Positions 440 through 41,153 of a DNA stretch of 41,153 nucleotides are shown one piece after another. The position numbers and the translations under genes were made by a program. The notes under the pieces were generated by a model. The model saw nothing but the letters and a program-made list of their open reading frames with translations, searched no databases and was not told the origin of the DNA. Source of the stretch: Saccoglossus kowalevskii (lineage: Eukaryota > Hemichordata > Enteropneusta > Harrimaniidae); NCBI RefSeq assembly GCF_000003605.2, contig NW_003109905.1:1-41153 (forward strand). Direction: 5' to 3'. Every line of letters starts with the position of its first letter. Position 1 is the stretch's first letter.

Positions 440-501
440 AAATACGCATAGTAGCATGCTATACGGGAGTCAAACATGATATGGCAGTTATTTGGATCCA
501 T
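440..501 (-). pseudogene. mini-gene copy 0, 5' fragment cut by the array edge
   Basis: Only the leader and about the first 21 codons remain (start ATG at 501, one of the N4-N6 codons deleted). At 439/440 the frame runs into foreign sequence and would stop after CEQ. Its promoter is complete: TATA at 551-560, CCAAT boxes near 569 and 605. A transcript starting here would run leftward into the unique region, toward and in the same direction as the B-box-like gene. Confidence 0.75.
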
Positions 502-1286
502 GTCGATTGATGGTATGGCTGTATCTGATGGAAAACAGTAAATTATGTCGTTTATAAAAGGGGGTCGGCCAATCAGCTTGATCTCGAACATGTCACTTTT
601 TGAACCAATCAGAAATCCCCGTCGAAGTGACAAAGTCGTCCAAACACGAAAATAGTTGTCACATTTTCACTTGTAGGCGGCGTGATTGAAGTTCTACGTT
701 ATTGTTTCCACTAAACTTTGTTGTGAAGCGAGTTTTTTAATTGCGACGCCTATTTGTTACCAGATACAACCGCGAAACGGTGACGCTTTATTACGTCCCG
801 GCAAATTAACAATACATATTCTGAGAGCTTTGCATAATGTAGTAATACATGCATTTGATTATTGCAATTTCTAGTTCATTACTTGCTCAGTTTCGCATTG
901 CCAAACTCTTATTCGCAACACATATGTATTAACATATATTTACTCGACAAAAAGATGGCGTTTTGTTGAGAACCGGAGATTAACATTACATATTCTGAAA
1001 GCTTTAAACAATTATGTAATACTTGTAATTAAGCATTTGAAATTAGCTGCTATTACATAATCTGCTTCCACATGTTCTTTTACTTAACTGAATAATTCCA
1101 ATGTGATGTGCGTCGCATGTTGGCGCTCTTTATTCTTTTTTATGCATTATGACATTGACCCGAATTGGTTGAAATCGTTCTGATTTGCAAATTAATAATG
1201 TATGAGAGTTGTACATAGCATTACGTGCAATAATCTGAGTGACGGGATGAACAATGTACGGTAGTTCTCATTTTGGAGTATGTGCT

Positions 1287-1302
1287 GGCCCTGAGAAGGG
1301 CC
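1287..1302 (-). terminator. histone-type 3' stem-loop, copy 1
   Basis: Minus strand GGCCCT-TCTC-AGGGCC, a perfect match to the histone stem-loop consensus GGYYYUHHUHARRRCC. It survives although most of the gene is deleted. Downstream purine element AAAATGAG. Confidence 0.85.
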
Positions 1303-1324
1303 GTTTTGTATGAGTGTCGTAGCA

Positions 1325-1388
1325 CTATTGCTGACGACGATTTTGCCTTTTCTGGATATTTTTTAAAATCACCCAAGGAGCATAATCT
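1325..1388 (-). pseudogene. mini-gene copy 1, 3' fragment
   Basis: Only the last ~20 codons (tail QKRQNRRQQ) and the stop remain. At about 1388 the sequence jumps straight into the spacer motif TTGCTCAGTTTCG, so leader, promoter and most of the ORF are deleted. The stem-loop at 1287-1302 survives. The same breakpoint occurs in copy 16. Confidence 0.8.
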
Positions 1389-1790
1389 TGCTCAGTTTCG
1401 CATTGCCAAACTCTTATTCGCAACACATATGTATTAACATATATTTACTCGACAAAAAGATGGCGTTTTGTTGAGAACCGGAGATTAACATTACATATTC
1501 TGAAAGCTTTAAACAATTATGTAATACTTGTAATTAAGCATTTGAAATTAGCTGCTATTACATAATCTGCTTCCACATGTTCTTTTACTTAACTGAATAA
1601 TTCCAATGTGATGTGCGTCGCATGTTGGCGCTCTTTATTCTTTTTTATGCATTATGACATTGACCCGATTGGTTGAAATCGTTCTGATTTGCAAATTAAT
1701 AATGTATGAGAGTTGTACATAGCATTACGTGCAATAATCTGAGTGATGGGATGAACAATGTACGGTAGTTCTCATTTTGGAGTATGTGCT

Positions 1791-1806
1791 GGCCCTGAGA
1801 AGGGCC
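1791..1806 (-). terminator. histone-type 3' stem-loop, copy 2
   Basis: Loop TCTC; downstream element AAAATGAG. Gene truncated. Confidence 0.85.
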
Positions 1807-1828
1807 GTTTTGTATGAGTGTCGTAGCA

Positions 1829-1926
1829 CTATTGCTGACGACGATTTTGCCGTTTCTGGATAATTTTTAAAATCACACAAGGAGCATAATCTACAGGATA
1901 ATTGCCTTCTTCAAGAATTTAGATGA
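1829..1926 (-). pseudogene. mini-gene copy 2, 3' fragment
   Basis: About 32 C-terminal codons remain. At 1926 the sequence jumps to the region beyond the distal CCAAT box (taaagtcgtcc), removing start codon, TATA and both CCAAT boxes. This is a different deletion from that in copy 1. Confidence 0.8.
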
Positions 1927-2582
1927 TAAAGTCGTCCAAACACGAAAATAGTTGTCACATTTTCACTTGTAGGCGGCGTGATTGAAGTTCTACGTTATTG
2001 TTTCCACTAAACTTTATTGTGAAGCGAGTTTATTAATTGCGACGCCTATTTGTTACCAGATACAACCGCGAAAAGGTGACGCTTTAGTACGTCCCGGCAA
2101 ATTAACAATACATATTCTGAGAGCTTTGCATAATGTAGTAATACATGCATTTGATTATTGCAATTTCTAGTTCATTACTTGCTCAGTTTCGCATTGCCAA
2201 ACTCTTATTCGCAACACATATGTATTAACATATATTTACTCGACAAAAAGATGGCGTTTTTTTGAGAACCGGAGATTAACATTACATATTCTGAAAGCGT
2301 TAAATAATTATGTAATACTTGTAATTAATCATTTGAAATTAGCTGCTATTACATAATCTGCTTCCACGTGTTCTTTTACTTAACTGAATTATTCCAATTT
2401 GATGTGCGTCGAATGTTGGCGCTCTTTATTCTGTTTTATGCATTATGACATTGACCCGAATTGGTTGAAATCGTTCTGATTTGCAAATAAGTAAGATATG
2501 ACAGTTGTACATAGCATTACGTGCAATAATCGCAGTGATGGGATGGACAATGTACGGTAGTTCTCTTTTTGGAGTATGTGCT

Positions 2583-2598
2583 GGCCCTGAGAAGGGCC
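2583..2598 (-). terminator. histone-type 3' stem-loop, copy 3
   Basis: Loop TCTC; downstream element AAAAAGAG. Confidence 0.85.
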
Positions 2599-2620
2599 GT
2601 TTTGTATGAGTGTCGTAGCA

Positions 2621-2878
2621 CTATTGCTGAGACGATTTTGCCGTTTCTGGATAATTTTTAAAATCACACAAGGAGCATAATCTACAGGATAATTGCCTTC
2701 TTCAGAATTTAGATGACCTCTTCGACAGGTAATAACTGTACGATGGATCGTGCCCAAGACGAGAATGCTCGTGTCCATGGCTGCGGTGTTCTCCTGTCGA
2801 AAAAGGGCTGAATAAAAACGCATAGTATCGTGCTATACGGGAGTCCAACATGATAGGGCAGTTGTTATTTGGATACAT
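2621..2878 (-). pseudogene. mini-gene copy 3, frameshifted, with dead proximal promoter
   Basis: Several one-base deletions break the frame (near 2630, 2704 and 2790). The N-terminus has D2Y, H8P and F11L. The proximal TATA is replaced by TTTTTAAAAAGG near 2929-2940 and the cap-site motif by CCATATGATA. Two further complete promoter modules lie behind it (TATA at 3171-3180 and 3412-3421). Confidence 0.8.
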
Positions 2879-2928
2879 GTCGATTGATAGTATGGCGGTA
2901 TCATATGGAAAAATGTAAAGGGCTGTCG

Positions 2929-2990
2929 TTTTTAAAAAGGCGTTCGGCCAATCAGCATGATCTCGCACATGTCACTTTTCGAACCAATCG
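2929..2990 (-). promoter_or_regulatory. degenerate proximal promoter of copy 3
   Basis: Both CCAAT boxes persist but TATAAA is replaced by an A/T run (TTTTTAAAAAGG) and the cap motif is CCATATGATA. Probably inactive. Confidence 0.6.
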
Positions 2991-3089
2991 GAAATCCCCG
3001 TCGAAGCGACAAAGTCGTCCAAACACGAAAATAGTTGTCACATTTTCACTTGTAGGCGGCGTGATTGAAGTTCTACGTTATTGTTTCCA

Positions 3090-3330
3090 CAGTTGTTATG
3101 GCAGTTGTTACTTGGATCCATGTTGATTTATGGCATGCCGGTATCTGATGGAAAACAGTAAATTCTGTCGTTTATAAAAGGGGGTCGGCCAATCAGCTTG
3201 ATCTCGCACATGTCACTTTTTGAACCAATCGGAAATCCCCGTCGAAGCGACAAAGTCGTCCAAACACGAAAATAGTTGTCACATTTTCACTTGTAGGCGG
3301 CGTGATTGAAGTTCTACGTTATTGTTTCCA
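3090..3330 (-). repeat. extra 241-bp promoter module, first of two behind copy 3
   Basis: Contains a complete TATA (3171-3180), both CCAAT boxes, leader and the first codons (MDPSNNCHNN), then joins the spacer-side sequence of the promoter next to it. It would start a transcript that runs into the copy 3 promoter. Confidence 0.85.
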
Positions 3331-3571
3331 CAGTTGTTATGGCAGTTGTTACTTGGATCCATGTTGATTTATGGCATGGCGGTATCTGATGGAAAACAGT
3401 AAATTCTGTCGTTTATAAAAGGGGGTCGGCAAATCAGCTTGATCTCGCACATGTCACTTTTTGAACCAATCAGAAATCCCCGTCGAAGTGACAAAGTCGT
3501 CCAAACACGAAAATAGTTGTCACATTTTCACTTGTAGGCGGCGTGATTGAAGTTCTACGTTATTGTTTCCA
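3331..3571 (-). repeat. extra 241-bp promoter module, second behind copy 3
   Basis: Directly follows the previous module with a period of 241 bp, making three promoters in series, the only triplet in the window. TATA 3412-3421; the proximal CCAAT is CAAAT. Confidence 0.85.
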
Positions 3572-4147
3572 CTAAACTTTATTGTGAAGCGAGTTTTTTT
3601 ATTGCGACGCCTATTTGTTACCAGATACAACCGCGAAAAGGTGACGCTTTAGTACGTCCCGGCAAATTAACAATACATATTCTGAGAGCTTTGCATAATG
3701 TAGTAATACATGCATTTGATTATTGCAATTTCTAGTTCATTACTTGCTCAGTTTCGCATTGCCGAACTCTTATTCACAACACATATGTATTAGCATATAT
3801 TTACTCGACAAAAAGATGGCGTTTTGTTGAGAACCGAAGATTAACATTACATATTCTGAAAGCTATAAATAATTATGTAATACTTGTAATTAATCATTTG
3901 AAATTAGCTGCTATTACATAATCTGCTTTTACATGTTCTTTTACTTAACTGAATAATTCCAATGTGATGTGCGTCGAATGTTGGCGCTCTTTATTCTGTT
4001 TTATGCATTATGACATTGACCCGAATTGGTTGAAATCGTTCTGATTTGCAAATAAGTATGATATGACAGTTGTACATAGCATTACGTGCAATAATCGCAG
4101 TGATGGGATGGACAGTGTACGGTAGTTCTCTTTTTGGAGTATGTGCT

Positions 4148-4163
4148 GGCCCTGAGAAGGGCC
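4148..4163 (-). terminator. histone-type 3' stem-loop, copy 4
   Basis: Loop TCTC; downstream element AAAAAGAG. Spacer to the stop has TAATGC instead of CATACA. Confidence 0.85.
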
Positions 4164-4185
4164 GTTTTGCATTAGTGTCGTAGCA

Positions 4186-4433
4186 CTATTGCTGACGACG
4201 ATTTTGCCTTTTCTGGGTAATTTTTAAAATCACCCAAGTAGCATAATCTACAGGATAATTGCCTTCTTCAAGAATTGAGATGACCTCTTCGACAGGTAAT
4301 AACTGTACGATGGATCGTGCCCAAGACGAGAATGCTCGGGTGGTCTCCTTGTCGAAAAAGGGCTGAATAAATACGGATAGTAGCATGCTATACGGGAGTC
4401 CAACATGATATGGCAGTTGTTATTTGGATCCAT
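4186..4433 (-). pseudogene. mini-gene copy 4, 13-nt deletion
   Basis: A 13-nt deletion near 4339 removes the PPQPWT segment and shifts the frame, so the N-terminal part (start 4433) and the C-terminal part ending at the stop 4188-4186 lie in different frames. The proximal TATA is degraded (TTTCTAAAAAGG near 4484); a good TATA sits in the next module at 4736-4745. It is a near twin of copy 15. Confidence 0.8.
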
Positions 4434-4483
4434 GTCGATTGATAGTATGGCGGTATCATATGGAAAAATGTAAACAGCTGTCG

Positions 4484-4545
4484 TTTCTAAAAAGGCGTTC
4501 GGCCAATCAGCATGATCTCGCACATGTCACTTTTCGAACCAATCG
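4484..4545 (-). promoter_or_regulatory. degenerate proximal promoter of copy 4
   Basis: TATA position reads TTTCTAAAAAGG; CCAAT boxes kept. Confidence 0.6.
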
Positions 4546-4644
4546 GAAATCCCCGTCGAAGTGACAAAGTCGTCCAAACACGAAAATAGTTGTCACATTT
4601 TCACTTGTAGGCGGCGTGATTGAAGTTCTACGTTATTGTTTCCT

Positions 4645-4885
4645 CAGTTGTTATGGCAGTTATTACTTGGATCCATGTTGATTTATGGCATGGCGGTATC
4701 TGATGGAAAACAGTAAATTCTGTCGTTTATAAAAGGGGGTCGGCCAATCAGCTTGATCTCGCACATGTCACTTTTTGAACCAATCAGAAATCCCCGTCGA
4801 AGTGATCAAGTCGTCCAAACGCGAAAATATTTGTCACATTTTCACTTGTAGGCGGCGTGATTGAAGTTCTACGTTATTGTTTCCA
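4645..4885 (-). repeat. extra 241-bp promoter module behind copy 4
   Basis: TATA 4736-4745. It supplies the only good TATA for this unit. Confidence 0.85.
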
Positions 4886-5461
4886 CTAAACTTTGTTGTG
4901 AAGCGAGTTTTTTAAATGCGACGCCTATTTGTTACCAGATACAACCGCGAAACGGTGACACTTTAGTACGTCCCGGCAAATTAACAATACATATTCTGAG
5001 AGCTTTGCATAATGTAGTAATACATGCATTTGATTATTGCAATTTCTAGTTCATTACTTGCTCAGTTTCGCATTGCCAAACTCTTATTCGCAACACATAT
5101 GTATTAACATATATTTACTCGACAAAAAGATGGCGTTTTGTTGAGAATCGGAGATTAACATTACATATTCTGAAAGCTTTAAATAATTATGTAATACTTG
5201 TAATTAATCATTTGAAATTAGCTGCTATTACATAATCTGCTTCGACATGTTCTTTTACTTAACTGAATTATTCCAATTTGATGTGCGTCGAATGTTGGCG
5301 CTCTTTATTCTGTTTTATGCAATATGACATTGACCTGAATTGGTTGAAATCGTTCTGATTTGCAAATTAATATCATATGCCTGTTGTTCATAGCATTACG
5401 TGCAATAATCTGAGTGATGGGATGGACAATGTACGGTAGTTCTCTTTTTGGAGTATGTGCT

Positions 5462-5477
5462 GGCCCTGAGAAGGGCC
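5462..5477 (-). terminator. histone-type 3' stem-loop, copy 5 (reference)
   Basis: Six GC-rich pairs closed by T-A around TCTC, 22 nt after the TAG stop. It is preceded by CAAAAC and followed by AGCACA, where cleavage after CA would be expected. AAAAAGAG at 5449-5442, 12 nt further, could pair with the CUCUUU core known from U7 snRNA. Confidence 0.9.
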
Positions 5478-5499
5478 GTTTTGTATGAGTGTCGTAGCA

Positions 5500-5760
5500 C
5501 TATTGCTGACGACGATTTTGCCTTTTCTGGATAATTTTTAAAATCACCCAAGGAGCATAATCTACAGGATAATTGCCTTCTCCAAGAATCGAGATGACCT
5601 CTTCGACAGGTAATAACTGTACGACGGATCGTGCCCAAGACGAGAATGCTCGTGTCCATGGCTGCGGTGGTCTCCTTGTCGAAAGAGGGCTGGATAAATA
5701 CGCATAGTAGCATGCTATACGGGAGTCAAACATGATATGGCAGTTGTTATTTGGATCCAT
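5500..5760 (-). CDS. histone-style mini-gene copy 5, intact 86-codon ORF (reference copy)
   Basis: This copy shows the full gene plan. TATA is at 5810-5819 (TATAAA read 5815 to 5810), with CCAAT boxes at 5828-5832 and 5864-5868. The predicted start is the A at 5788 in TTCCATCAG, followed by a 28-nt leader and the ATG at 5760. The 86-residue protein has an N-rich start (MDPNNNCHIM), a proline/arginine patch (STRRPPQPWTR, 27-37), a middle with PVEEVISILGEGNY (51-64) and a basic tail KIIQKRQNRRQQ (75-86). Net charge is about +4. I see no signal peptide, membrane segment or cysteine-pair motif. Only I46V departs from the array majority. The frame stays open upstream of the ATG, but that extension would be encoded by the promoter, so this ATG is preferred. 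I do not recognise the protein. PV-x9-GNY has the spacing seen at the start of the H2A fold, but identity is otherwise low. Confidence 0.5.
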   Translation of the reverse strand: MDPNNNCHIMFDSRIACYYAYLSSPLSTRRPPQPWTRAFSSWARSVVQLLPVEEVISILGEGNYPVDYAPWVILKIIQKRQNRRQQ

Positions 5761-5809
5761 GTCGATTGATGGTATGGCGGTATCTGATGGAAAACAGAAA
5801 ATTCTGTCG

Positions 5810-5868
5810 TTTATAAAAGGTGGTCGGCCAATCAGCTTGATCTCGCGCATGTCACTTTTTTAACCAAT
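5810..5868 (-). promoter_or_regulatory. histone-style core promoter (reference, copy 5)
   Basis: On the minus strand, distal ATTGG (5868-5864), proximal ATTGG (5832-5828) and TTTTATAAA (5818-5810) follow in order. The two CCAAT boxes are 36 bp apart. Both fit the NF-Y consensus well (GGCCAATCAG, AACCAATCAG), and evenly spaced NF-Y pairs are a known feature of cell-cycle promoters. An E-box-like CACATG occurs between them in most copies; here it reads CGCATG. TTCCATCAG, 28 nt after the first T of TATAAA, resembles the invertebrate histone cap motif YCATTCR. Confidence 0.75.
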
Positions 5869-5924
5869 CAGAAATCCCCGTCGAAGTGACAAAGTCGTCC
5901 AAACACGAAAATAGTTGTCACAGT

Positions 5925-6137
5925 TTCTACAGCATAATATTCAGGATAATTGCCTTCTCCAAGAATTGAGATAACCTCTTCGACAGGTAATAACTGTACG
6001 ATGGATCGTGCCCAAGACGAGAATGCTCGTGTCCATGGCTGCGGTGGTCTCTTTGTCGAAAGAGGGCTGGATAACTACGCATAGTAGCATGCTATACGGG
6101 AGTCAAACATGATATGGCAGTTGTTATTTGGATCCAT
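5925..6137 (-). pseudogene. mini-gene copy 6, lacks 3' end and stem-loop
   Basis: A partial duplicate inserted between copy 5's promoter and the next spacer. It has its own TATA (6187-6196) and start (6137), but Y21 is changed to TAG near 6075 and the sequence breaks off near 5925, so there is no tail, stop or stem-loop. A transcript from it would run on through the copy 5 promoter. Confidence 0.75.
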
Positions 6138-6924
6138 GTCGATTGATAGTACAGCGATATCTGATGGAAAACAGTAAATTCTGTCGTTTATAAAAGGGTG
6201 TCGGCCAATCAGCTTGATCTCGCACATGTCACTTTTTGAACCAATCAGAAATCCCCGTCGAAGTGACAAAGTCGTCCAAACACGAAAATAGTTGTCACAT
6301 TTTCACTTGTAGGCGGCGTGATTGAAGTTCTACGTTATTGTTTCCACTAAACTTTGTTGTGAAGCGAGTTTTTTAATTGCGACGCCTATTTGTTACCAGA
6401 TACAACCGCGAAACGGTGACACTTTAGTACGTCCCGGCAAATTAACAATACATATTCTGAGAGCTTTGCATAATGTAGTAATACATGCATTTGATTATTG
6501 CAATTTCTAGTTCATTACTTGCTCAGTTTCGCATTGCCAAACTCTTATTCGCAACAAATATGTATTAACATATATTTACTCGACAAAAAGATGGCGTTTT
6601 GTTGAGAACCGGAGATTAACATTACATATTCTGAAAGCTTTAAATAATTATGTAATACTTGTAATTAATCATTTGAAATTAGCTGCTATTACATAATCTG
6701 CTTCTACATGTTCTTTTACTTAACTGAATTATATTCCAATGTGATGTGCGTCGAATGTTGGCGCTCTTTATTCTGTTTTATGCATTATGACATTGACCTG
6801 AATTGGTTGCAATCGTTCTGATTTGCAAATTAATATGATATGGCAGTTGTTCATAGCATTGCGTGCAATAATCTGAGTGATGGGATGGACAATGTACGGT
6901 AGTTCTCTTTTTGGAGTATGTGCT

Positions 6925-6940
6925 GGCCCTGAGAAGGGCC
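6925..6940 (-). terminator. histone-type 3' stem-loop, copy 7
   Basis: Loop TCTC; downstream element AAAAAGAG. Confidence 0.85.
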
Positions 6941-6962
6941 GTTTTGTATGAGTGTCGTAGCA

Positions 6963-7224
6963 CTATTGCTGACGACGATTTTGCCTTTTTCTGGATAATT
7001 TTTAAAATCACCCAAGGAGCATAATCTACAGGATAATTGCCTTCTCCAAGAATTGAGATGACCTCTTCGACAGGTAATAACTGTACGATGGATCGTGCCC
7101 AAGACGAGAATGCTCGTGTCCATGGCTGCGGTGGTCTCCTTGTCAAAAGTGGGCTGGATAAATACGCATAGTAGCATGCTATACGGGAGTCAAACATGAT
7201 ATGGCAGTTGTTATTTGGATCCAT
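6963..7224 (-). pseudogene. mini-gene copy 7, C-terminal frameshift
   Basis: One extra T in the run near 6985 shifts the frame ten codons before the usual stop. The ORF from 7224 then runs through the stem-loop (6925-6940) to 6778. Translation across the stem-loop is not compatible with a histone-type mRNA, so the copy is probably non-functional as a protein gene. Its TATA (7274-7283) and stem-loop are intact. Confidence 0.7.
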
Positions 7225-7433
7225 GTCGATTGATGGTATGGCGGTATCTGATGGAAAACAGTAAATTCTGTCGTTTATAAAAGGGGGTCGGCCAATCAGC
7301 TTGATCTCGCACATGTCACTTTTTGAACCAATCAGAAATCCCCGTCGAAGTGAGAAAGTCGTCCAGACGCGAAAATAGTTGTCACATTTTCACTTGTAGG
7401 CGGCGTGATTGAAGTTCTACGTTATTGTTTCCA

Positions 7434-7674
7434 CAGTTGTTATGGCAGTTGTTATTTGGATCCATGTCGATTGATGGTATGGCGGTATCTGTTGGAAAAC
7501 AGTAAATTCTGTCGTTTATAAAAGGGTGTCGGCCAATCAGCTTGATCTCGCACATGTCACTTTTTGAACCAATCAGAAATCCCCGTCGAAGTGACAAAGT
7601 CGTCCAAACACGAAAATAGTTGTCACATTTTCACTTGTAGGCGGCGTGATTGAAGTTCTACGTTATTGTTTCCA
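7434..7674 (-). repeat. extra 241-bp promoter module behind copy 7
   Basis: TATA 7515-7524. From the ATG at 7465 a 27-codon ORF (to 7382) begins MDPNNNCHNNCGNNN and ends in sequence that is normally upstream of the promoter. Confidence 0.85.
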
Positions 7675-8250
7675 CTAAACTTTATTGTGAAGCGAGTTTT
7701 TTAATTGCGACGCCTATTTCTTACCAGATACAACCGCGAAAAGGTGACGCTTTAGTACGTCCCGGCAAATTAACAATACATATTCTGAGAGCTTTGCATA
7801 ATGTAGTAATACATGCATTTGATTATTGCAATTTCTAGTTCATTACTTGCTCAGTTTCGCATTGCCAAACTCTTATTCACAACACATATGTATTAGCATA
7901 TATTTACTCGACAAAAAGATGGCGTTTTGTTGAGAACCGGAGATTAACATTACATATTCTGAAAGCTTTAAATAATTATGTAATACTTGTAATTAAGCAT
8001 TTGAAATTAGTTGCTATTACATAATCTGCTTCCACATGTTCTTTTACTTAACTGAATTATTCCAATGTGATGTGCGTCGAATGTTGGCGCTCTTTATTCT
8101 GTTTTATGCATTATGACATTGACCTGCATTGGTTGAAATCGTTCTGATTTTCAAATTAATATGATATGGCAGTTGTTCATAGCATTACGTGCAATAATCT
8201 GAGTGATGGGATGGACAATGTACGGTAGTTCTCCTTTTGGAGTATGTGCT

Positions 8251-8266: not shown

Positions 8267-8288
8267 GTTTTGTAAGAGTGTCGTAGCA

Positions 8289-9347: not shown

Positions 9348-9369
9348 GTTTTGTATGCGTGTCGTAGCA

Positions 9370-9630
9370 CTATTGCTGACGACGATTTTGCCTTTTCTGG
9401 ATAATTTTTAAAATCACCCAAGGAGCATAATCTACAGGATAATTGCCTTCTCCAAGAATTGAGATGACCTCTTTAACAGGTAATAACTGTACGATGGATC
9501 GTGCCCAAGACGAGAATGCTCGTGTCCATGGCTGCGGTGGTCTCCTTGTCGAAAGAGGGCTGGATAAATACGCATAGTAGCATGCTATACGGGAGTCAAA
9601 CATGATATGGCAGTTGTTATTTGGATCCAC
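9370..9630 (-). pseudogene. mini-gene copy 9, start codon lost
   Basis: The frame is full length but the initiator is GTG (cac at 9628-9630). The next ATG is codon 10, giving at most a 77-residue product. It also has E53K. TATA lies at 9680-9689 and again at 9921-9930. Confidence 0.65.
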
Positions 9631-12038: not shown

Positions 12039-12824
12039 GTCGATTGATGGTATGGCTGTATCTGATGGAAAACAGTAAATTCTGTCGTTTATAAAAGGGG
12101 GTCGGCCAATCAGCTTGATCTCGCACATGTCACTTTTTGAACCAATCAGAAATCCCCGTCGAAGTAACAAAGTCGTCCAAACACGAAAATAGTTGTCACA
12201 TTTTCACTTGTAGTCGGCGTGATTGAAGTTCTACGTTATTGTTTCCACTAAACTTTATTGTGAAGCGAGTATTTTTAATTGCAACGCCTATTTGTTACCA
12301 GATACAACCGCGAAAAGGTGACGCTTTAGTACGTCCCGGCAAATTAACAATACATATTCTGAGAGCTTTGCATAATGTAGTAATACATGCATTTGATTAT
12401 TGCAATTTCTAGTTCATTACTTGCTCAGTTTCGCATTGCCAAACTCTTATTCGCAACACATATGTATTAACATATATTTACTCGACAAAAAGATGGAGTT
12501 TTGTTGAGAACCGGAGATTAACATTACATATTCTGAATGCTTTAAATAATTATGTAATACTTGTAATTAATCATTTGAAATTAGCTGCTATTACATAATC
12601 TGCTTCTACATGTTCTTTTACTTAACTGAATTATTCCAATGTGATGTGCGTCGAATGTTGGCGTTCTTTATTCTGTTTTATGCATTATGACATTGACCCG
12701 AATTGGTTGAAATCGTTCTGATTTGCAAATAAGTATGATATGACAGTTGTACATAGCATTACGTGCAATAATCGCAGTGATGGGATGGACAATGTACGGT
12801 AGTTCTCTTTTTGGAGTACGTGCT

Positions 12825-12840
12825 GGCCCTGAGAAGGGCC
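12825..12840 (-). terminator. histone-type 3' stem-loop, copy 12
   Basis: Loop TCTC; downstream element AAAAAGAG. Confidence 0.85.
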
Positions 12841-12862: not shown

Positions 12863-13123
12863 CTATTGCTGACGACGATTTTGCCTTTTCTGGATAATTT
12901 TTAAAATCACCCAAGGAGCATAATCTACAGGATAATTGCCTTCTCCAAGAATTGAGATGACCTCTTCGACAGGTAATAACTGTACGACGGATCGTGCCCA
13001 AGACGAGAATGCTCGTGTCCATGGCTGCGGTGGTCTCCTTGTCGAAAGAGGGCTGGATAAATACGCATAGTAGCATGCTATACGGGAGTCAAACATGATA
13101 TGGCAGTTGTTATTTGGATCCAT
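12863..13123 (-). CDS. mini-gene copy 12, intact ORF
   Basis: Full length, with I46V the only change from the majority. TATA 13173-13182. Copies 12 to 15 are spaced at exactly 1,084 bp, the cleanest stretch of the array. Confidence 0.5.
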   Translation of the reverse strand: MDPNNNCHIMFDSRIACYYAYLSSPLSTRRPPQPWTRAFSSWARSVVQLLPVEEVISILGEGNYPVDYAPWVILKIIQKRQNRRQQ

Positions 13124-13908
13124 GTCGATTGATGGTATGGCTGTATCTGATGGAAAACAGTAAATTCTGTCGTTTATAAAAGGGGGTCGGCCAATCAGCT
13201 TGATCTCGCACATGTCACTTTTTGAACCAATCAGAAATCCCCGTCGAAGTAACAAAGCCGTCCAAACACGAAAATAGTTGTCACATTTTCACTTGTAGGC
13301 GGCGTGATTGAAGTTCTACGTTATTGTTTCCACTAAACTTTGTTGTGAAGCGAGTTTTTTATTTGCGACGCCTATTTGTTACCAGATACAACCGCGAAAA
13401 GGTGACTCTTTGGTACGTCCCGGCAAATTAACAGTACATATTCTGAGAGCTTTGCATAATGTAGTAATACATGCATTTGACTATTGCAATTTCTAGTTCA
13501 TTACTTGCTCAGTTTCGCATTGCCAAACTCTTATTCGCAACACATATGTATTAACATATATTTACTCGACAAAAAGTTGGCGTTTTGTTGAGAACCGGAG
13601 ATTAGCATTACATATTCTGAAAGCTTTAAATAATTATATAATACTTGTAATTAATCATTTGAAATTAGCTGCTATTACATAATCTGCTTCTACATGTTCT
13701 TTTACTTAACTGAATTATTCCAATGTGATGTGCGTCGAATGTTGGCGCTCTTTATTCTGTTTTATGCATTATGACATTGACCTGCATTGGTTGAAATCGT
13801 TCTGATTGTCAAATTAATATGATATGGCAGTTGTTCATAGCATTACGTGCAATAATCTGAGTGATGGGATGGACAATGTACGGTAGTTCTCCTTTTGGAG
13901 TATGTGCT

Positions 13909-17491: not shown

Positions 17492-17895
17492 TTGCTCAGT
17501 TTCGCATTGCCAAACTCTTATTCACAACACATATGTATTAGCATATATTTACTCGACAAAAAGATGGCGTTTTGTTGAGAACCGGAGATTAACATTACAT
17601 ATTCTGAAAGCTTTAAACAATTATGTAATACTTGTAATTAAGCATTTGAAATTAGCTGCTATTACATAATCTGCTTCCACATGTTCTTTTACTTAACTGA
17701 ATTATTCCAATGTGATGTGCGTCGCATGTTGGCGCTCTTTATTCTGTTTTATGCATTATGACATTGACCCGAATTGGTTGAAATCGTTCTGATTTGCAAA
17801 TTAATAATGTATGAGAGTTGTACATAGCATTACGTGCAATAATCTGAGTGATGGGATGGACAATGTACGATAGTTCTCTTTTTGGAGTATGTGCT

Positions 17896-17911
17896 GGCCC
17901 TGAGAAGGGCC
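17896..17911 (-). terminator. histone-type 3' stem-loop, copy 17
   Basis: Loop TCTC; downstream element AAAAAGAG. Confidence 0.85.
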
Positions 17912-17933
17912 GTTTTGTATGAGTGTCGTAGCA

Positions 17934-23554: not shown

Positions 23555-23569
23555 GGCCCTGAGAAGGCC
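23555..23569 (-). terminator. damaged histone-type stem-loop, copy 22
   Basis: One C is missing from the 5' arm (GGCCTTCTCAGGGCC), so the six-pair stem cannot form as in the others. Confidence 0.7.
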
Positions 23570-23591
23570 GTTTTGTATGAGTGTCGTAGCA

Positions 23592-32082: not shown

Positions 32083-32098
32083 GGCCCTGAGTAGGGCC
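32083..32098 (-). terminator. histone-type 3' stem-loop, copy 29
   Basis: Loop ACTC, still within consensus; downstream element AAAAAGAG. Confidence 0.85.
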
Positions 32099-33726: not shown

Positions 33727-33742
33727 GGCCCTGAGAAGGGCC
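33727..33742 (-). terminator. histone-type 3' stem-loop, copy 30
   Basis: Loop TCTC; downstream element AAAAAGAG. Confidence 0.85.
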
Positions 33743-33764
33743 GTTTTTTATGAGTGTCGTAGCA

Positions 33765-34025: not shown

Positions 34026-34810
34026 GTCGATTGATGGTATGGCGGTATCTGATGGAAAACAGTAAATTCTGTCGTTTATAAAAGGGGGTCGGCCAATCAG
34101 CTTGATCTCGCACATGTCACTTTTTGAACCAATCAGAAATCCCCGTCGAAGTGATAAAGTCGTCCAAACACGAAAATAGTTGTCACATTTTCACTTGTAG
34201 GCGGCGTGATTGAAGTTCTACGTTATTGTTTCCACTAAACTTTGTTGTGAAGCGAGTTTTTTAATTGCGACGCCTATTTGTTACCAGATACAACCGCGAA
34301 AAGGTGACGCTGTAGTACGTCCCGGCAAATTAACAATACATATTCTCAGAGCTTTGCATAATGTAGTAATACATGCATTTGATTATTGCAATTTCTAGTT
34401 CATTACTTGCTCAGTTTCGCATTGCCAAACTCTTATTCGCAACACATATGTATTAACATATACTTACTCGACAAAAATATGGCGTTTTGTTGAGAACCGG
34501 AGATTAACATTACATATTCTGAAAGCTTTAAATAATTATGTAATACTTGTAATTAATCATTTGAAATTAGCTGCTATTACATAATCTGCTTCTACATGTT
34601 CTTTTACTTAACTGAATTTTTCCAATTTGATGTGCGTCGAATGTTGGCGCTCTTTATTCTGTTTTTTGCATTATGACATTGACCTGAATTGGTTGAAATC
34701 GTTCTGATTTGCAAATAAGTATGATATGACAGTTGTACATTGCATTACGTGCAATAATCGCAGTGATGGGATGGACAATGTACGGTAGTTCTTTTTTTGG
34801 AGTATGTGCT

Positions 34811-34826
34811 GGCCCTCAGAAGGGCC
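34811..34826 (-). terminator. altered-loop stem-loop, copy 31
   Basis: Loop TCTG; downstream element AAAAAAAG. Confidence 0.8.
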
Positions 34827-34848
34827 GTTTTGTATGAGTGTCGTAGCA

Positions 34849-35109
34849 CTATTGCTGACGACGATTTTGCCTTTTCTGGATAATTTTTAAAATCACACAA
34901 GGAGCATAATCTACAGGATAATTGCCTTCTCCAAGAATTGAGATGACCTCTTCGACAGGTAATAACAGTACGATGGATCGTGCCCAAGACGAGAATGCCC
35001 GTGTCCATGGCTGCGGTGGTCTCCTTGTCGAAAAAGGACTGAATAAATACGCATAGTAGCATGCTATACGGGAGTCCAACATGATAGGGCAGTTGTTATT
35101 TGGATACAT
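34849..35109 (-). CDS. mini-gene copy 31, intact ORF
   Basis: Full length with D2Y, H8P, F11L, S23F, L26F, Q48L and W71C. Its N-terminal variants match dead copies 3 and 24, but here both the ORF and TATA (35159-35168) are intact. A second module has TATA at 35400-35409. Confidence 0.5.
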   Translation of the reverse strand: MYPNNNCPIMLDSRIACYYAYLFSPFSTRRPPQPWTRAFSSWARSIVLLLPVEEVISILGEGNYPVDYAPCVILKIIQKRQNRRQQ

Positions 35110-35318
35110 GTCGATTGATGGTATGGCGGTATCTGATGGAAAACAGTAAATTCTGTCGTTTATAAAAGGGGGTCGGCCAATCAGCTTGATCTCGAACATG
35201 TCACTTTTTGAACCAATCAGAAATCCCCGTCGAAGTGACAAAGTCGTCCAAACACGAAAATAGTTGTCACATTTTCACTTGTAGGCGGCGTGATTGAAGT
35301 TCTATGTTATTGTTTCCA

Positions 35319-35559
35319 CAGTTGTTATGGCAGTTGTTACTTGGATCCATGTCGATTGATGGTATGGCGGTATCTGATGGAAAACAGTAAATTCTGTCGT
35401 TTATAAAAGGGGGTCGGCCAATCAGCTTGATCTCGCACATGTCACTTTTTGAACCAATCAGAAATCCCCGTCGAAGTGATAAAGTCGTCCAAACACGAAA
35501 ATAGTTGTCACATTTTCACTTGTAGGCGGCGTGATTGAAGTTCTACGTTATTGTTTCCA
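35319..35559 (-). repeat. extra 241-bp promoter module behind copy 31
   Basis: TATA 35400-35409. Its leader matches the gene-proximal type rather than the usual module type (tgtcgattgatgg). Confidence 0.85.
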
Positions 35560-36135
35560 CTAAACGTTATTGTGAAGCGAGTTTTTTAATTGCGACGCCT
35601 ATTTGTTACCAGATACAACCCCGAAAAGGTGTCGCTTTAGTACGTCCCGTCAAATTAACAATACATATTCTGAGAGCTTTGCATAATGTAGTAATACATG
35701 CATTTGATTATTGCAATTTCTAGTTCATTACTTGCTCAGTTTCGCATTGCCAAACTCTTATTCACAACACATATGAATTAGCATATATTTACTCGACAAA
35801 AAGATGGCGTTTTGTTGAGAACCGGAGATTAACATTACATATTCTGAAAGCTTTAAATAATTATGTAATACTTGTAATTAATCATTTGAAATTAGCTGCT
35901 ATTACATAATCTGCTTCTACATGTTCTTTTACTTAACTGAATTATTCCAATGTGATGTGCGTCGAATGTTGGCGCTCTTTATTCTGTTTTATGCATTATG
36001 ACATTGACCTGAATTGGTTGAAATCGTTCTGATTTGCAAATTAATATGATATGGCAGTTGTTCATAGCATTACGTGCAATAATCTGAGTGATGGGATGGA
36101 CAATGTACGGTAGTTCTCCTTTAGGAGTATGTGCT

Positions 36136-36151
36136 GGCCCTGAGAAGGGCC
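36136..36151 (-). terminator. histone-type 3' stem-loop, copy 32
   Basis: Loop TCTC; downstream element TAAAGGAG. Confidence 0.85.
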
Positions 36152-36173
36152 GTTTTGTATGAGTGTCGTAGTA

Positions 36174-36431
36174 CTATTGCTGACGACGATTTTGCCTTTT
36201 CTGGATAATTTTTAAAATCACCCAAGGAGCATAATCTACAGGATAACTGCCCTTCTCGAAGAATTGAGATGACCTCTTCGACAGGTATAACTGTACGATG
36301 ATCGTGCCCAGACGAGAATGCTCGTGTCCATGGCTGCGGTGGTCTCTTGTCGAAAGAGGGCTGGATAAATACGCATAGTAGCATGCTATACGGGAGTCGA
36401 ACATGATATGGCAGTTGTTATTTGGATCCAT
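36174..36431 (-). pseudogene. mini-gene copy 32, compensated frameshifts
   Basis: Deletions near 36286, 36300, 36310 and 36345 plus an insertion near 36250 leave the frame open for 85 codons, but the middle third is translated in other frames, replacing the PPQPW to ISILG segment. The proximal CCAAT reads CAAAT. TATA 36481-36490, second module 36722-36731. Confidence 0.65.
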
Positions 36432-36640
36432 GTCGATTGATAGTATAGCGGTATCTGATGGAAAACAGTAAATTCTGTCGTTTATAAAAGGGGGTCGGCA
36501 AATCAGCTTGATCTCGCACATGTCACTTTTCGAACCAATCGGAAATCCCCGTCGAAGTGACAAAGTCGTCCAAACACGAAAATAGTTGTCACATTTTCAC
36601 TTGTAGGCGGCGTGATTGAAGTTCTACGTTATTGTTTCCA

Positions 36641-36881
36641 CAGTTGTTATGGCAGTTGTTACTTGGATCCATGTTGATTTATGGCATGGCGGTATCTGAT
36701 GGAAAACAGTAAATTCTGTCGTTTATAAAAGGGGGTCGGCCAATCAGCTTGATCTCGCACATGTCACTTTTTGAACCAATCAGAAATCCCCGTCGAAGTG
36801 ATAGAGTCGTCCAAACACGAAAATAGTTGTCACATTTTCACTTGTAGGCGGCGTGATTGAAGTACTACGTTATTGTTTCCA
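36641..36881 (-). repeat. extra 241-bp promoter module behind copy 32
   Basis: TATA 36722-36731, CCAAT boxes intact. Confidence 0.85.
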
Positions 36882-37458
36882 CTAAACTTTGTTGTGAAGC
36901 GAGTTTTTTTATTTGCGACGCCTATTTGTTACCAGATACAGCCGCCAAAAGGTGACGCTTTAGTACGTCCCGGCAAATTAACAATACATATTCTGAGAGC
37001 TTTGCATAATGTAGTAATACATGCATTTGATTATTGCAATTTCTAGTTCATTACTTGCTCAGTTTCGCATTGCCAAACTCTTATTCGCAACACATATGTA
37101 TTAACATATATTTACTCGACAAAAAGTTGGCGTTTTGTTGAGAACCGGAGATTAACATTACATATTCTGAAAGCTTTAAATAATTATGTAATACTTGTAA
37201 TTAATCATTTGAAATTAGCTGCTATTACATAATCTGCTTCTACATGTTCTTTTACTTAATTGAATTATTCCACTGTGATGTGCGTCGAATGTTGGCGCTC
37301 TTTAGTCTGTTTTATGCATTATGACATTGACCCGAATTTGTTGAAATCGTTCTGATTTGCAAATAAGTATGATATGACAGTTGTACATAGCATTACGTGC
37401 AATAATCGCAGTGATGGGATGGACAATGTACGGTAGTTCTCTTTTTGGAGTATGTGCT

Positions 37459-37474
37459 GGCCCTCAGAAGGGCC
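37459..37474 (-). terminator. altered-loop stem-loop, copy 33
   Basis: Loop TCTG; the downstream element is the strong form AAAAAGAG. Confidence 0.8.
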
Positions 37475-37496
37475 GTTTTGTATGAGTGTCGTAGCA

Positions 37497-37757
37497 CTAT
37501 TGCTGACGACGATTTTGCCTTTTCTGGATAATTTTTAAAATCACACAAGGAGCATAATCTACAGGATAATTGCCTTCTTCAAGAATTGAGATGACCTCTT
37601 CGACAGGTAATAACTGTACGATGGATCGTGCCCAAGACGAGAATGCTCGGGTCCATGGCTGCGGTGGTCTCCTTGTCGAAAAAGGGCTGAATAAATACGG
37701 ATAGTAGCATGCTATACGGGAGTCCAACATGATATGGCAGTTGTTATTTGGATCCAT
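37497..37757 (-). CDS. mini-gene copy 33, intact ORF
   Basis: Full length with F11L, A20P, S23F, L26F, G60E and W71C, variants typical of the altered-loop subfamily. TATA 37807-37816. Confidence 0.5.
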   Translation of the reverse strand: MDPNNNCHIMLDSRIACYYPYLFSPFSTRRPPQPWTRAFSSWARSIVQLLPVEEVISILEEGNYPVDYAPCVILKIIQKRQNRRQQ

Positions 37758-38539
37758 GTCGATTGATGGTATGGCGGTATCTGATGGAAAACAGTAAATT
37801 CTGTCGTTTATAAAAGGGGGTCGGCCAATCAGCTTGATCTCGCACATGTCACTTTTTGAACCAATCAGAAATCCCCGTCGAAGTGATAAAGTCGTCCAAA
37901 CACGAAAATAGTTGTGACATTTTCACTTGTAGGCGGCGTGATTGAAGTTCTACGTTATTGTTTCCATTAAACTTTATTGTGAAGCGAGTTTTTTTAATTG
38001 CGACGCCTATTTGTTACCAGATACAACCGCGAAAAGGTGACGCTTTAGTACGTCCCGGCAAATTAAAAATACATATTCTGAGAGCTTTGCATAATGTAGT
38101 AATACATGCATTTGATTATTGCAATTTCTAGTTCATTACTTGCTCAGTTTCGCATTGCCAAACTCTTATTCACAACACATATGTATTAACATATATTTAC
38201 TCGACAAAAAGATGGCGTTTTGTTGAGAACCGGAGATTAACATTACATATTCTGAAAGCTTTAAATAATTATGTAATACTTGTATTTAATCATTTGAAAT
38301 TAGCTGCTATTACATAATCTGCTTCTACATGTTCTTTTACTTAACTGAATTATTTCAATTTGATGTGCGTCGAATGTTGGCGCTCTTTATTCTGTTTTAT
38401 GCATTATGACATTGACCCGAATTTGTGAAATCGTTCTGATTTGCAATTAAGTATGATATGACAGTTGTACATAGCATGCGTGCATAATCGCAGTGATGGG
38501 ATGGACAATGTACGGTAGTCTCTTTTTGGAGTATGTGCT

Positions 38540-38555
38540 GGCCCTGAGAAGGGCC
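38540..38555 (-). terminator. histone-type 3' stem-loop, copy 34
   Basis: Loop TCTC; downstream element AAAAAGAG. Confidence 0.85.
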
Positions 38556-38577
38556 GTTTTGTATGAGTGTCGTAGCA

Positions 38578-38838
38578 CTATTGCTGACGACGATTTTGCC
38601 TTTTCTGGATAATTTTTAAAATCACCCAAGGAGCATAATCTACAGGATAATTGCCTTATCCAAGAATTGAGATGACCTCTTCGACAGGTAATAACTGTAC
38701 GATGGATCGTGCCCAAGACGAGAATGCTCGTGTCCATTGCTGCGGTGGTCTCCTTGTCGAAAGAGGGCTGGATAAATACGCATAGTAGCATGCTATACGG
38801 GAGTCAAACATGATATGGCAGTTGTTATTTGGATCCAT
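38578..38838 (-). pseudogene. mini-gene copy 34, nonsense at codon 61
   Basis: E61 (GAA) is TAA at about 38658, removing the GNY motif and basic tail. It also has P34Q. TATA 38888-38897 and the stem-loop are intact. Confidence 0.7.
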
Positions 38839-39623
38839 GTCGATTGATGGTATGGCGGTATCTGATGGAAAACAGTAAATTCTGTCGTTTATAAAAGGGG
38901 GTCGGCCAATCAGCTTGATCTCGCACATGTCACTTTTTGAACCAATCAGAAATCCCCGTCGAAGTGACAAAGTCGTCCAGACGCGAAAATAGTTGTCACA
39001 TTTTCACTTGTAGGCGGCGTGATTGAAGTTCTACGTTATTGTTTCCACTAAACTTTGTTGTGAAGCGAGTTTTTTAATTGCGACGCCTATTTGTTACCAG
39101 ATACAACCGCGAAACGGTGACACTTTAGTACGTCCCGGCAAATTAACAATACTTATTCTGAGAGCTTTGCATAATGTAGTAATACATGCATTTGATTATT
39201 GCAATTTCTAGTTCATTACTTGCTCAGTTTCGCATTGCCAAACTCTTATTCGCAACACATATGTATTAACATATATTTACTCGACAAAAAGATGGCGTTT
39301 TGTTGAGAACCGGAGATTAACATTACATATTCTGAAAGCTTTAAATAATTATGTAATACTTATAATTAATCATTTGAAATTAGCTGCTATTACATAATCT
39401 GCTTCTACATGTTCTTTTACTTAACTGAATTTTTCCAATTTGATGTGCGTCGAATGTTGGCGCTCTTTATTCTGTTTTATGCATTATGACATTGACCTGA
39501 ATTGGTTGAAATCGTTCTGATTTGCAAATAAGTATGATATGACAGTTGTACATTGCATTACGTGCAATAATCGCAGTGATGGGATGGACAATGTACGGTA
39601 GTTCTTTTTTTGGAGTATGTGCT

Positions 39624-39639
39624 GGCCCTCAGAAGGGCC
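39624..39639 (-). terminator. altered-loop stem-loop, copy 35
   Basis: Loop TCTG; downstream element AAAAAAAG. W71 kept in the ORF, a mosaic like copy 27. Confidence 0.8.
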
Positions 39640-39661
39640 GTTTTGTATGAGTGTCGTAGCA

Positions 39662-39922
39662 CTATTGCTGACGACGATTTTGCCTTTTCTGGATAATTTT
39701 TAAAATCACCCAAGGAGCATAATCTACAGGATAATTGCCTTCTCCAAGAATTGAGATGACCTCTTTAACAGATAATAACTGTACGATGGATCGTGCCCAA
39801 GACGAGAATGCTCGTGTCCATTGCTGCGGTGGTCTCCTTGTCGAAAGAGGGCTGGATAAATACGCATAGTAGCATGCTATACGGGAGTCAAACATGATAT
39901 GGCAGTTGTTATTTGGATCCAT
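39662..39922 (-). CDS. mini-gene copy 35, intact ORF
   Basis: Full length with P34Q, P51S and E53K. TATA 39972-39981. P34Q is shared with neighbouring copy 34, suggesting local exchange. Confidence 0.5.
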   Translation of the reverse strand: MDPNNNCHIMFDSRIACYYAYLSSPLSTRRPPQQWTRAFSSWARSIVQLLSVKEVISILGEGNYPVDYAPWVILKIIQKRQNRRQQ

Positions 39923-40707
39923 GTCGATTGATGGTATGTCGGTATCTGATGGAAAACAGTAAATTCTGTCGTTTATAAAAGGGGGTCGGCCAATCAGCTT
40001 GATCTCGCACATGTCACTTTTTGAACCAATCAGAAATCCCCGTCGAAGTGACAAAGTCGTCCAAACGCGAAAATAGTTGTCACATTTTCACTTATAGGCG
40101 GCGTGATTGAAGTTCTACGTTATTGTTTCCACTAAACTTTGTTGTGAAGCGAGTTTTTTAAATGCGACGCCTATTTGTTACCAGATACAACCGTGAAAAG
40201 GTGACGCTTTAGTACGTCCCGGCAAATTAACAATACATATTCTGAGAGCTTTGCATAATGTAGTAATACATGCATTTGATTATTGCAATTTCTAGTTCAT
40301 TACTTGCTCAGTTTCGCATTGCCAAACTCTTATTCGCAACACATATGTATTAACATATATTTACTCGACAAAAAGATGGCGTTTTGTTGAGAACCGGAGA
40401 TTAACATTACATATTCTGAAAGCTTTAAATAATTATGTAATACTTGTAATTAAGCATTTGAAATTAGCTGCTATTACATAATCTGCTTCCACATGTTCTT
40501 TTACTTAACTGAATTATTCCAATGTGATGTGCGTCGAATGTTGGCGCTCTTTATTCTGTTTTATGCATTATGACATTGACCTGAATTGGTTGAAATCGTT
40601 CTGATTTGCAAATTAATATGATATGGCAGTTGTTCATAGCATTGCGTGCAATAATCGCAGTGATGGGATGGACAATGTACGGTAGTTCGTTTTTTGGAGT
40701 ATGTGCT

Positions 40708-40723
40708 GGCCCTCAGAAGGGCC
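40708..40723 (-). terminator. altered-loop stem-loop, copy 36
   Basis: Loop TCTG; downstream element AAAAAACG. Confidence 0.8.
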
Positions 40724-40745
40724 GTTTTGTATGAGTGTCGTAGCA

Positions 40746-41006
40746 CTATTGCTGACGACGATTTTGCCTTTTCTGGATAATTTTTAAAATCACACAAGGA
40801 GCATAATCTACAGGATAATTGCCTTCTTCAAGAATTGAGATGACCTCTTCGACAGGTAATAACTGTACGATGGATCGTGCCCAAGACGAGAATGCTCGGG
40901 TCCATGGCTGCGGTGGTCTCCTTGTCGAAAAAGGGCTGGATAAATACGCATAGTAGCATGTTATACGGGAGTCAAACATGATATGGCAGTTGTTATTTGG
41001 ATCCAT
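40746..41006 (-). CDS. mini-gene copy 36, intact ORF
   Basis: Full length with A16T, L26F, G60E and W71C. TATA 41056-41065. The proximal CCAAT is changed to CCCAT (near 41074); the distal one is normal. Last copy before the right edge. Confidence 0.5.
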   Translation of the reverse strand: MDPNNNCHIMFDSRITCYYAYLSSPFSTRRPPQPWTRAFSSWARSIVQLLPVEEVISILEEGNYPVDYAPCVILKIIQKRQNRRQQ

Positions 41007-41153
41007 GTCGATTGATGGTATGGCGGTATCTGATGGAAAACAGTAAATTCTGTCGTTTATAAAAGGGGGTCGGCCCATCAGCTTGATCTCGCACATGTCA
41101 CTTTTCGAACCAATCAGAAATCCCCGTCAAAGTGACAAAGTCGTCCAAACTGA

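Follow-up and report, generated by a model that had tools for sequence, protein, structure and literature searches.

To our knowledge, the SLBP/U7 pathway is generally presented as serving almost only histone mRNAs, whose hairpin has the consensus GGYYYUUYUNARRRCC. Replication-dependent histone genes and satellite DNA are the closest described systems to the locus analysed here, a window of 41,153 nucleotides of Saccoglossus kowalevskii (contig NW_003109905.1) that is largely occupied by a tandem array. With the replication-dependent histone genes the array shares the hairpin, a downstream element complementary to a probable U7 snRNA, a CCAAT/TATA promoter, a short distance from stop codon to hairpin and a multicopy arrangement, but it lacks histone coding, its open reading frame (ORF) is unconstrained and 32 of its 33 hairpin regions fall below the Rfam gathering score. 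With satellite DNA it shares a head-to-tail unit of about 1,084 bp, partial internal duplications and 150 scored copies in five contigs, whereas it differs in having histone-type start and end signals in each unit. Overall, the array has the appearance of a young satellite built from a histone-type transcription unit and not that of a functioning protein gene.

Architecture of the repeat unit

Similarity to the array begins at about position 440 and continues to the end of the window (441–41,153, minus strand, running off the right edge). Its near-identical units of about 1,084 bp lie head-to-tail, as in satellite DNA, and are interspersed with 241-bp partial copies that cover the promoter and 5' ORF segment. 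This confirmed the original prediction of a satellite-like array at 440–41,150 with a short ORF and a histone 3' signal in each repeat, with the qualification that some units are partial or broken. Thirty-two full-length ORF copies were found in the window: 20 ungapped and without internal stop (one of them, 9370–9629, with GTG in place of ATG), 3 with a stop and 9 gapped, one of these still being open. Five additional ORF copies are partial, and the hairpins at 1287, 1791 and 17391 are preceded by the 3' part of the unit only. Outside the array, positions 1–440 (minus strand) contain an open frame with 115 residues in view (MKCDDC...), which is cut by the window edge and matched no Pfam family above the cut-off.

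A minus-strand search of the window with GGCCCTTYTCARGGCC, allowing up to 2 mismatches, returned 34 matches, 26 of them exact, while none appeared in 100 shuffled controls. The 6-bp stem is intact in 33 of the 34, the very number of stem-loops that had been predicted for this strand; the exception is a broken-stem copy at 23555–23570 (minus strand). That copy and a loop variant at 32083–32098 are the misfits to the histone consensus, which was fitted by 32/34 hairpins in the window and by 45/47 aligned copies. The search with the Rfam Histone3 model (RF00032), put forward as a check of the prediction, gave a divided result: 33 window matches were obtained (E values from 2.3e-6 to 2.4e-3), yet just one of them, at 17870–17916 (minus strand, 34.3 bits), exceeded the gathering score of 34.

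The layout of a representative unit (all features on the minus strand) is as follows. The 86-codon ORF (MDPNNN...RRQQ; 12863–13123) is followed, 22 nt past its stop, by the hairpin GGCCCT-TCTC-AGGGCC (12825–12840; pattern and Rfam match) and, 12 nt past the hairpin, by the downstream element AAAAAGAGAACTACCGTA (12795–12812), which is predicted to pair with the 5' end of a probable U7 snRNA. Both predicted distances thus held, the 22 nt in copies with an intact ORF and the 12-nt spacer to the purine-rich AAAAAGAGAA in the example units. Upstream, a TATA box TTTTATAAAC (13172–13181) lies 58 nt from the ATG and is preceded by a proximal (13191–13196) and a distal (13227–13232) inverted CCAAT box (GATTGG). 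These boxes, identified by reading the sequence, resemble the histone promoters of the same genome, and the ordered combination of two CCAAT boxes and a TATA box is present in 35 of 43 aligned copies. An AATAAA follows the array hairpin at about 150 nt in the consensus. Among 10 tested hairpins, 5 had AATAAA or ATTAAA within 340 nt downstream (beginning at 62 nt in family C, see below) and none had a poly(A)-type hexamer within 120 nt upstream.

The genome encodes an SLBP RNA-binding domain (PF15247) in two pieces at C1837:289594–290049. As for U7, three Rfam matches were obtained, all below threshold, and the weakest of them (24.8 bits, E 0.82) was picked because its 5' end fits the downstream element. 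This candidate (C62:79430–79490) lies in a locus that contains two copies 763 bp apart, and it combines the complementary 5' end with a 3' hairpin of 13 bp and an Sm-like AATTTCTCCAG. Searches for U7 by sequence pattern were rejected, one having produced no hits and another 4 hits, the same number as its control. The predicted pairing between this sub-threshold candidate and the array element averaged -16.0 kcal/mol (n = 34, range -18.1 to -10.0), with a median of 0 out of 200 shuffles reaching values as low, here and in every other class of site described below; the proposed comparison with the U7 snRNA of the same genome therefore favoured the prediction. In at least two array copies the predicted pairing is weakened (-10.0 and -11.7 kcal/mol).

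Variation among copies and readings of the array

On balance, we lean towards reading the array as a recently amplified tandem satellite of a complete histone-type transcription unit devoid of a histone, whose 3' cassette derived from a histone gene and spread as a module. Transcription from the CCAAT/TATA promoter would yield an RNA of roughly 330 nt, with SLBP recognising the hairpin and the U7 snRNP pairing with the downstream element, and cleavage a few bases past the hairpin would release a short non-polyadenylated RNA in S phase. The 3' end of a histone gene would be the source of the cassette, from which the module may have spread through the genome. Several observations weigh against this reading: the AATAAA/ATTAAA hexamers downstream of hairpins, the single hairpin region above the Rfam gathering score, the copies with weakened U7 pairing, the low rank of the U7 candidate together with the outcome of the U7 pattern searches, and the variation in downstream element and promoter described below.

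It is also quite possible, though we would not call it probable, that the array is inert, that is, the dead and untranscribed descendant of a histone-type gene or element, multiplied through unequal exchange, its signals being intact through youth alone. Variation among copies bears directly on this. Of 47 hairpin-anchored rows, 43 were kept and 4 dropped as misaligned or partly divergent. The copies varied almost evenly across the ORF, the downstream element and the spacer and more strongly in the promoter, as expected of an inert satellite: the downstream element carried 9 alleles against 6.5 expected, so that its conservation among copies was not above background, and the promoter carried 37 against 28.2, a variability above average. 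These two values raise the possibility that the array is a decaying relic, with signals kept by youth. The neutral replacement/silent ratio of the ORF (see below) and the confinement of all 150 scored ORF copies (of 213 candidates) to five contigs point in the same direction. Against inertness, the hairpin core was less variable than the rest, with 3 alleles against 8.9 expected (P 0.022), a rate below that of the 3' spacer (P 0.048) and 2 singletons against 5.9 expected (P 0.066), all P values being uncorrected; the ordered promoter boxes are kept in most of the aligned copies; and the predicted U7 pairing of a typical copy beats its shuffles. Selection on the whole cassette within the array was considered and rejected, since the signal was stronger with all 47 rows, whereas with 43 the hairpin core was the only part with below-average variation.

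That the unit is instead a genuine gene, encoding a new S-phase protein of 86 residues and amplified in the manner of histone genes, with a few copies selected and most being pseudogenes, appears improbable. Its stop-to-hairpin distance is close to that of the histone genes in this genome (24–31 nt), 30 of the 47 full-length copies are ungapped and without internal stop, and a stop-free run of 141 codons arose in only 4 of 300 shuffles; however, an M-started ORF of at least 86 codons arose in 56 of 300. Moreover, the ORF alleles over the 47 copies comprised 69 replacement, 19 silent and 8 stop changes, against 66.5, 21.8 and 7.7 expected, so the variation matches neutral change and purifying selection was not detected. 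We dropped the protein-gene reading on these counts and the ORF shuffles. As the protein encoded by the 86-codon ORF is not maintained, the product, if any, would be an RNA or a dispensable peptide.

Homology searches with the ORF pointed the same way. No Pfam family was found at E 10, the search of solved structures gave two non-histone matches (E 0.92 and 1.5) and no histone at E 10, and no ORF relative outside the array was present among the 150 matches scored. These results bore out the prediction that the unit is not H1, H2A, H2B, H3 or H4, and PF00125 had no match on C439 among the genome matches listed. Searches for viral relatives produced 20 pattern matches for the ORF protein, none confirmed, and none for the cassette pattern. 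A histone remnant was likewise rejected, because no Pfam family and only non-histone structures were found and histone loci align to the cassette alone. From the predicted multicopy, histone-type but non-canonical gene, what stands is a multicopy non-histone unit with a histone-type 3' end; the protein gene is not supported, given the neutral variation of the ORF, the absence of relatives in the searches made and the occurrence of M-started ORFs of its length in shuffles.

The cassette at histone genes and in dispersed families

The cassette recurs at H2A, H2B, H3 and H4 genes of this genome, and a nearly identical one of about 50–60 nt lies behind the genes of three unrelated dispersed families, with DDE_1 (family A), DDE_3 (family B) and HIRAN (family C) domains. 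Among the matches listed, cassette loci amounted to at least 32 in dispersed families versus at least 20 at histone genes. At E 1e-3, alignments of the array with histone loci and with the three families were limited to about 50–60 nt around the hairpin and element, at 76–94% identity to histone loci (92–94% to H4 sites) and 77–92% to dispersed loci, and no similarity to families A–C extended past the cassette. Two additional hairpin loci (L017 and L036) had no interpretable gene. As a separate observation on this genome, a 614-base piece of COX1 reads TGA as tryptophan and is open under six mitochondrial-type codes.

Family A is a 2,290-bp element (L070, 3514–5803) with a TA target, inverted termini matching at 26 of 27 bases, TA included, and a DDE_1 domain (E 5e-15, the N-terminal part lying outside the sequence examined). 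In domain, termini and target it agrees with the pogo/Tigger-type DNA transposons, to which we take it to belong, and it differs from them in the histone cassette located 31 nt past the stop of its transposase gene. Family B, presumably a Tc1/IS630-type transposase, shares the DDE_3 domain with that type and differs in carrying the cassette after the stop, as do two relatives with 34–36% amino-acid identity to it; no terminal repeats were found in three loci. Family C has the HIRAN domain, detected in the one copy scanned, in common with other HIRAN-domain genes, whereas its gene forms part of a dispersed element, about 1.2 kb long in L071, whose ends are of the TACCGTATTACCCCGGG type, and the cassette follows 27 nt past the stop in L085 and L087. 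We know of no other transposase gene ending in a histone cassette, and in the parts of the open literature that were accessible we found no report of such a cassette on comparable non-histone or mobile DNA, nor anything joining the histone stem-loop to a transposable element.

Predicted pairing with the U7 candidate averaged -17.1 kcal/mol at histone sites (18 distinct), -18.0 in family A (n = 4), -17.9 in family B and its relatives (n = 5) and -16.7 in family C (11 distinct). It is very improbable that hairpin and element are a recombination or insertion site, or another DNA-level motif common to histone genes, transposons and array, instead of processing signals: the block shared among families A, B and C and an H2B gene is indeed sharply bounded (58–96 nt), and TACCGTA opens the termini of both family A and family C, but the block lies 27–33 nt past the stop in families A, B and C and in one relative (52 nt in another), and in the distant relatives L086 and L081 the letters of the element differ while the predicted pairing is kept (-17.5 and -22.7 kcal/mol).

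Implications of a possibly transferable 3' end

The presence of the cassette on a satellite and several mobile families suggests, as far as sequence comparison can tell, that the histone pathway may have been co-opted by selfish DNA. We consider the chances evenly balanced that the SLBP/U7 3' end can be transferred as a module, that it is in working order on the DDE_1, DDE_3 and HIRAN mobile families and on the satellite, and that it yields RNAs without poly(A) in S phase only. If so, such transcripts would escape poly(A)-selected RNA-seq, and they would offer a natural set of non-histone substrates for defining what SLBP and U7 require. The expression of mobile elements would be tied to DNA replication, the time when DNA transposons may profit most from jumping, and would escape poly(A)-based control. 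Should transposons and the satellite indeed use SLBP and U7, the pathway would represent a capturable route by which selfish DNA is expressed only during replication.

Histone-type signals of the array unit

The SLBP/U7 pathway processes the 3′ ends of histone mRNAs by way of a hairpin of known consensus and, to our knowledge, is used near-exclusively by histones. A pattern search of the window revealed 34 minus-strand hairpins within 2 mismatches of GGCCCTTYTCARGGCC, 26 of them exact, and the pattern found no match in 100 shuffles. Infernal matched the Rfam Histone3 stem-loop model (RF00032) at 33 places in the window, with E values from 2.3e-6 to 2.4e-3, and just one of the 33 exceeded the gathering score. 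In units with an intact ORF the hairpin starts 22 nt past the stop, and AAAAAGAGAACTACCGTA starts 12 nt past the hairpin, in agreement with the spacings first noted. Across the genome (572 Mb in 4,830 contigs, the window being one whole contig, C439), the exact array hairpin occurs 126 times, and at least 2 of these, among the matches listed, lie at H4 genes of contig C260; the rest may include further sites outside the array. A COX1 piece of this genome was seen to use TGA for tryptophan.

The array unit measures about 1084 bp. Its promoter carries a TATA box 58 nt upstream of the ATG and two inverted CCAAT boxes, an ordered CCAAT/CCAAT/TATA set that is present in 35 of 43 array copies and resembles the H2A and H3 promoters of the genome. 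The SLBP domain (PF15247) is encoded, in two pieces, at contig C1837. Tandem partial duplications of 241 bp, most of them consisting of the promoter and the 5′ part of the ORF, and one of 377 bp, were observed at window positions 2857-3572, 4409-4884, 5554-6304, 7200-7675 and others. At window positions 1-440 the minus strand holds an open frame (MKCDDC..., 115 residues visible) which runs to the window edge; it starts Cys/His-rich and has no Pfam family over the cut-off.

Coding capacity and constraint

The window holds 32 full-length ORF copies. Twenty show neither gaps nor internal stops (one of them begins with GTG instead of ATG), 3 contain a stop and 9 are gapped, one of these still being open; 5 further copies are partial. 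The best 150 of 213 candidate matches to the ORF protein all fell within contigs C439, C1112, C1716, C2493 and C2911. Of the distinct alleles in 47 full-length copies, taken from the window and from stretches of C1112 and C2493, 69 replaced an amino acid, 19 were silent and 8 introduced a stop, against 66.5, 21.8 and 7.7 expected at random under the same mutation spectrum. In a second set of 43 rows (47 hairpin-anchored rows minus 4 partly misaligned or divergent), the ORF varied like the rest of the unit, with 89 alleles against 88.7 expected. An M-started ORF of at least 86 codons arose in 56 of 300 shuffled consensus units, whereas just 4 of the 300 held 141 codons in a row free of stops. 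At E 10 no Pfam family matched the ORF protein; its only two matches among solved structures (E 0.92 and 1.5) were not histones, in keeping with the initial reading by eye, in which the gene was none of H1, H2A, H2B, H3 or H4. Taken together, these results led us to conclude that the ORF, in the copies read, is not maintained as a protein; the reading of the array as a protein gene is not supported.

The 26-nt hairpin core showed 3 alleles against 8.9 expected within the array (P 0.022, uncorrected), with uncorrected P values of 0.048 against the 3′ spacer and 0.066 for singletons. The array downstream element was not conserved above background (9 alleles against 6.5 expected) and the promoter varied more than average (37 against 28.2). 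From these counts the hairpin may be under weak constraint, or the array may be an inert young satellite. An ordinary poly(A) end is a further possibility for an array RNA, since the consensus unit has an AATAAA about 150 nt downstream of the hairpin. Ten loci, two of them short (L085 and L086), were tested for such hexamers: none of the 10 had AATAAA or ATTAAA up to 120 nt upstream of its hairpin, and 5 had at least one within 340 nt downstream (L012, L076, L085, L019 and the H2B gene L038).

A candidate U7 snRNA

Three Rfam U7 matches were obtained, all sub-threshold, the weakest of which (24.8 bits, E 0.82) was locus L065 (C62:79430 of genome G000). It holds two copies of the candidate, at positions of about 746 and 1509, 763 bp apart, both with a 5′ end, UUACGGUAUAUCUCUUUUC, that is complementary to the array downstream element; 3′ of this end lie AAUUUCUCCAG and then a 13-bp hairpin. 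The Sm-like site, AATTTCTCCAG, is unusual. By their sequence, the L065 copies are probably U7 snRNA. The suggested comparison with the genome's own U7 was made with this sub-threshold candidate: its predicted pairing with the array averaged -16.0 kcal/mol (-18.1 to -10.0, 34 copies) and with 18 distinct histone sites -17.1 kcal/mol, and the median number of shuffles pairing as low was 0 of 200 for array and histone sites alike.

The cassette at histone genes and in dispersed elements

The same cassette of hairpin and downstream element is found at H2A, H2B, H3 and H4 genes of the genome, 24-31 nt past the stop (measured to the hairpin start), and the TCTC-loop hairpin is common to H4 genes and the array. 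The hairpin-to-element block is the sole part of the array unit that aligned with the non-array loci compared, with identities of 76-94% at histone loci (92-94% at H4 sites) and 77-92% in three dispersed element families, A, B and C. Together, RF00032 matches and hits to the pattern AACGGCCCTTTTCAGGGCCAC, with three sites added, gave at least 86 distinct non-array hairpin loci, assigned by sequence or by proximity to protein matches; all counts are lower bounds, the best 75 of 50,532 RF00032 candidates having been scored. They comprise at least 20 histone-gene loci, with at least 3 more within 6 kb of a histone gene, at least 5 loci each of families A and B with their relatives, at least 22 of family C (most of L014-L034, plus L037, L071, L085 and L087), at least 7 whose one link to family C is a score equal to that of two of its copies, and at least 24 unclassified loci, e.g. 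C996:534652 (L017) and C96:114532 (L036), near which no histone or known element was identified. Inspection of L017 and L036 revealed no gene that could be interpreted.

The family A element spans 2290 bp (L070:3514-5803, on C3323; other copies L009, L010 and L011), has inverted termini matching at 26 of 27 bases, TA included, and a TA target, and encodes a DDE_1 transposase (E 5e-15) with the hairpin and U7 element 31 nt past its stop. Three copies, one ending at a contig edge, are 99% alike and diverge past the shared terminus. Its protein was found at 16 places (19 rows), 14 of which entered the tally, with a listed hairpin near at least 5 of the 16; the two places outside the tally, C3427:242610 and C1491:42688, had none nearby among those listed. 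Family B encodes a DDE_3 transposase (L012, L013 and L032), with the hairpin 27 nt past the stop in L012 and 33 nt in L074; DDE_1 elements such as A are of the pogo/Tigger type, and DDE_3 transposases such as that of B are of the Tc1/IS630 type. Two distant relatives of B, L076 and L081 (34-36% protein identity to B, 49% to each other), also carry the hairpin, 52 and 32 nt past the stop. Of 12 extracted loci reported with family B, 7 had the hairpin (three being parts of one element) and 5 lacked it. The one family C copy scanned encodes a HIRAN domain; the family has ends of the TACCGTATTACCCCGGG type (in L071 they match exactly, inverted, over 13 bp) and, where the frame is intact (L085 and L087), the hairpin 27 nt past the stop. 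The termini of A and C (L070 and L071) start with TACCGTA, the closing letters of the histone U7-complementary element, by chance or by history.

Families A, B, C and an H2B gene align mutually over just 58-96 nt around the hairpin. The three families are predicted to pair with the U7 candidate as well as histones do, at -18.0 (A, n=4), -17.9 (B, n=5) and -16.7 kcal/mol (C, n=11 distinct). The element letters differ in the divergent L081, with loop-free pairing at -22.7 kcal/mol, and also in L086, where pairing is kept at -17.5 kcal/mol, which is the pattern that maintained function would give. Searches of the open literature turned up no paper that describes histone hairpins in transposons.

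Transcription, processing and S-phase timing of the array and element RNAs are inferred here from sequence. The cassette was putatively captured from a histone gene and would be functional in the A, B and C elements, with SLBP on the hairpin and U7 on the downstream element; the RNA would be cut a few bases beyond the hairpin and lack a poly(A) tail, and element expression would be tied to S phase. The array may be the same type of unit, amplified into a satellite, whose product would be an RNA or a dispensable peptide.
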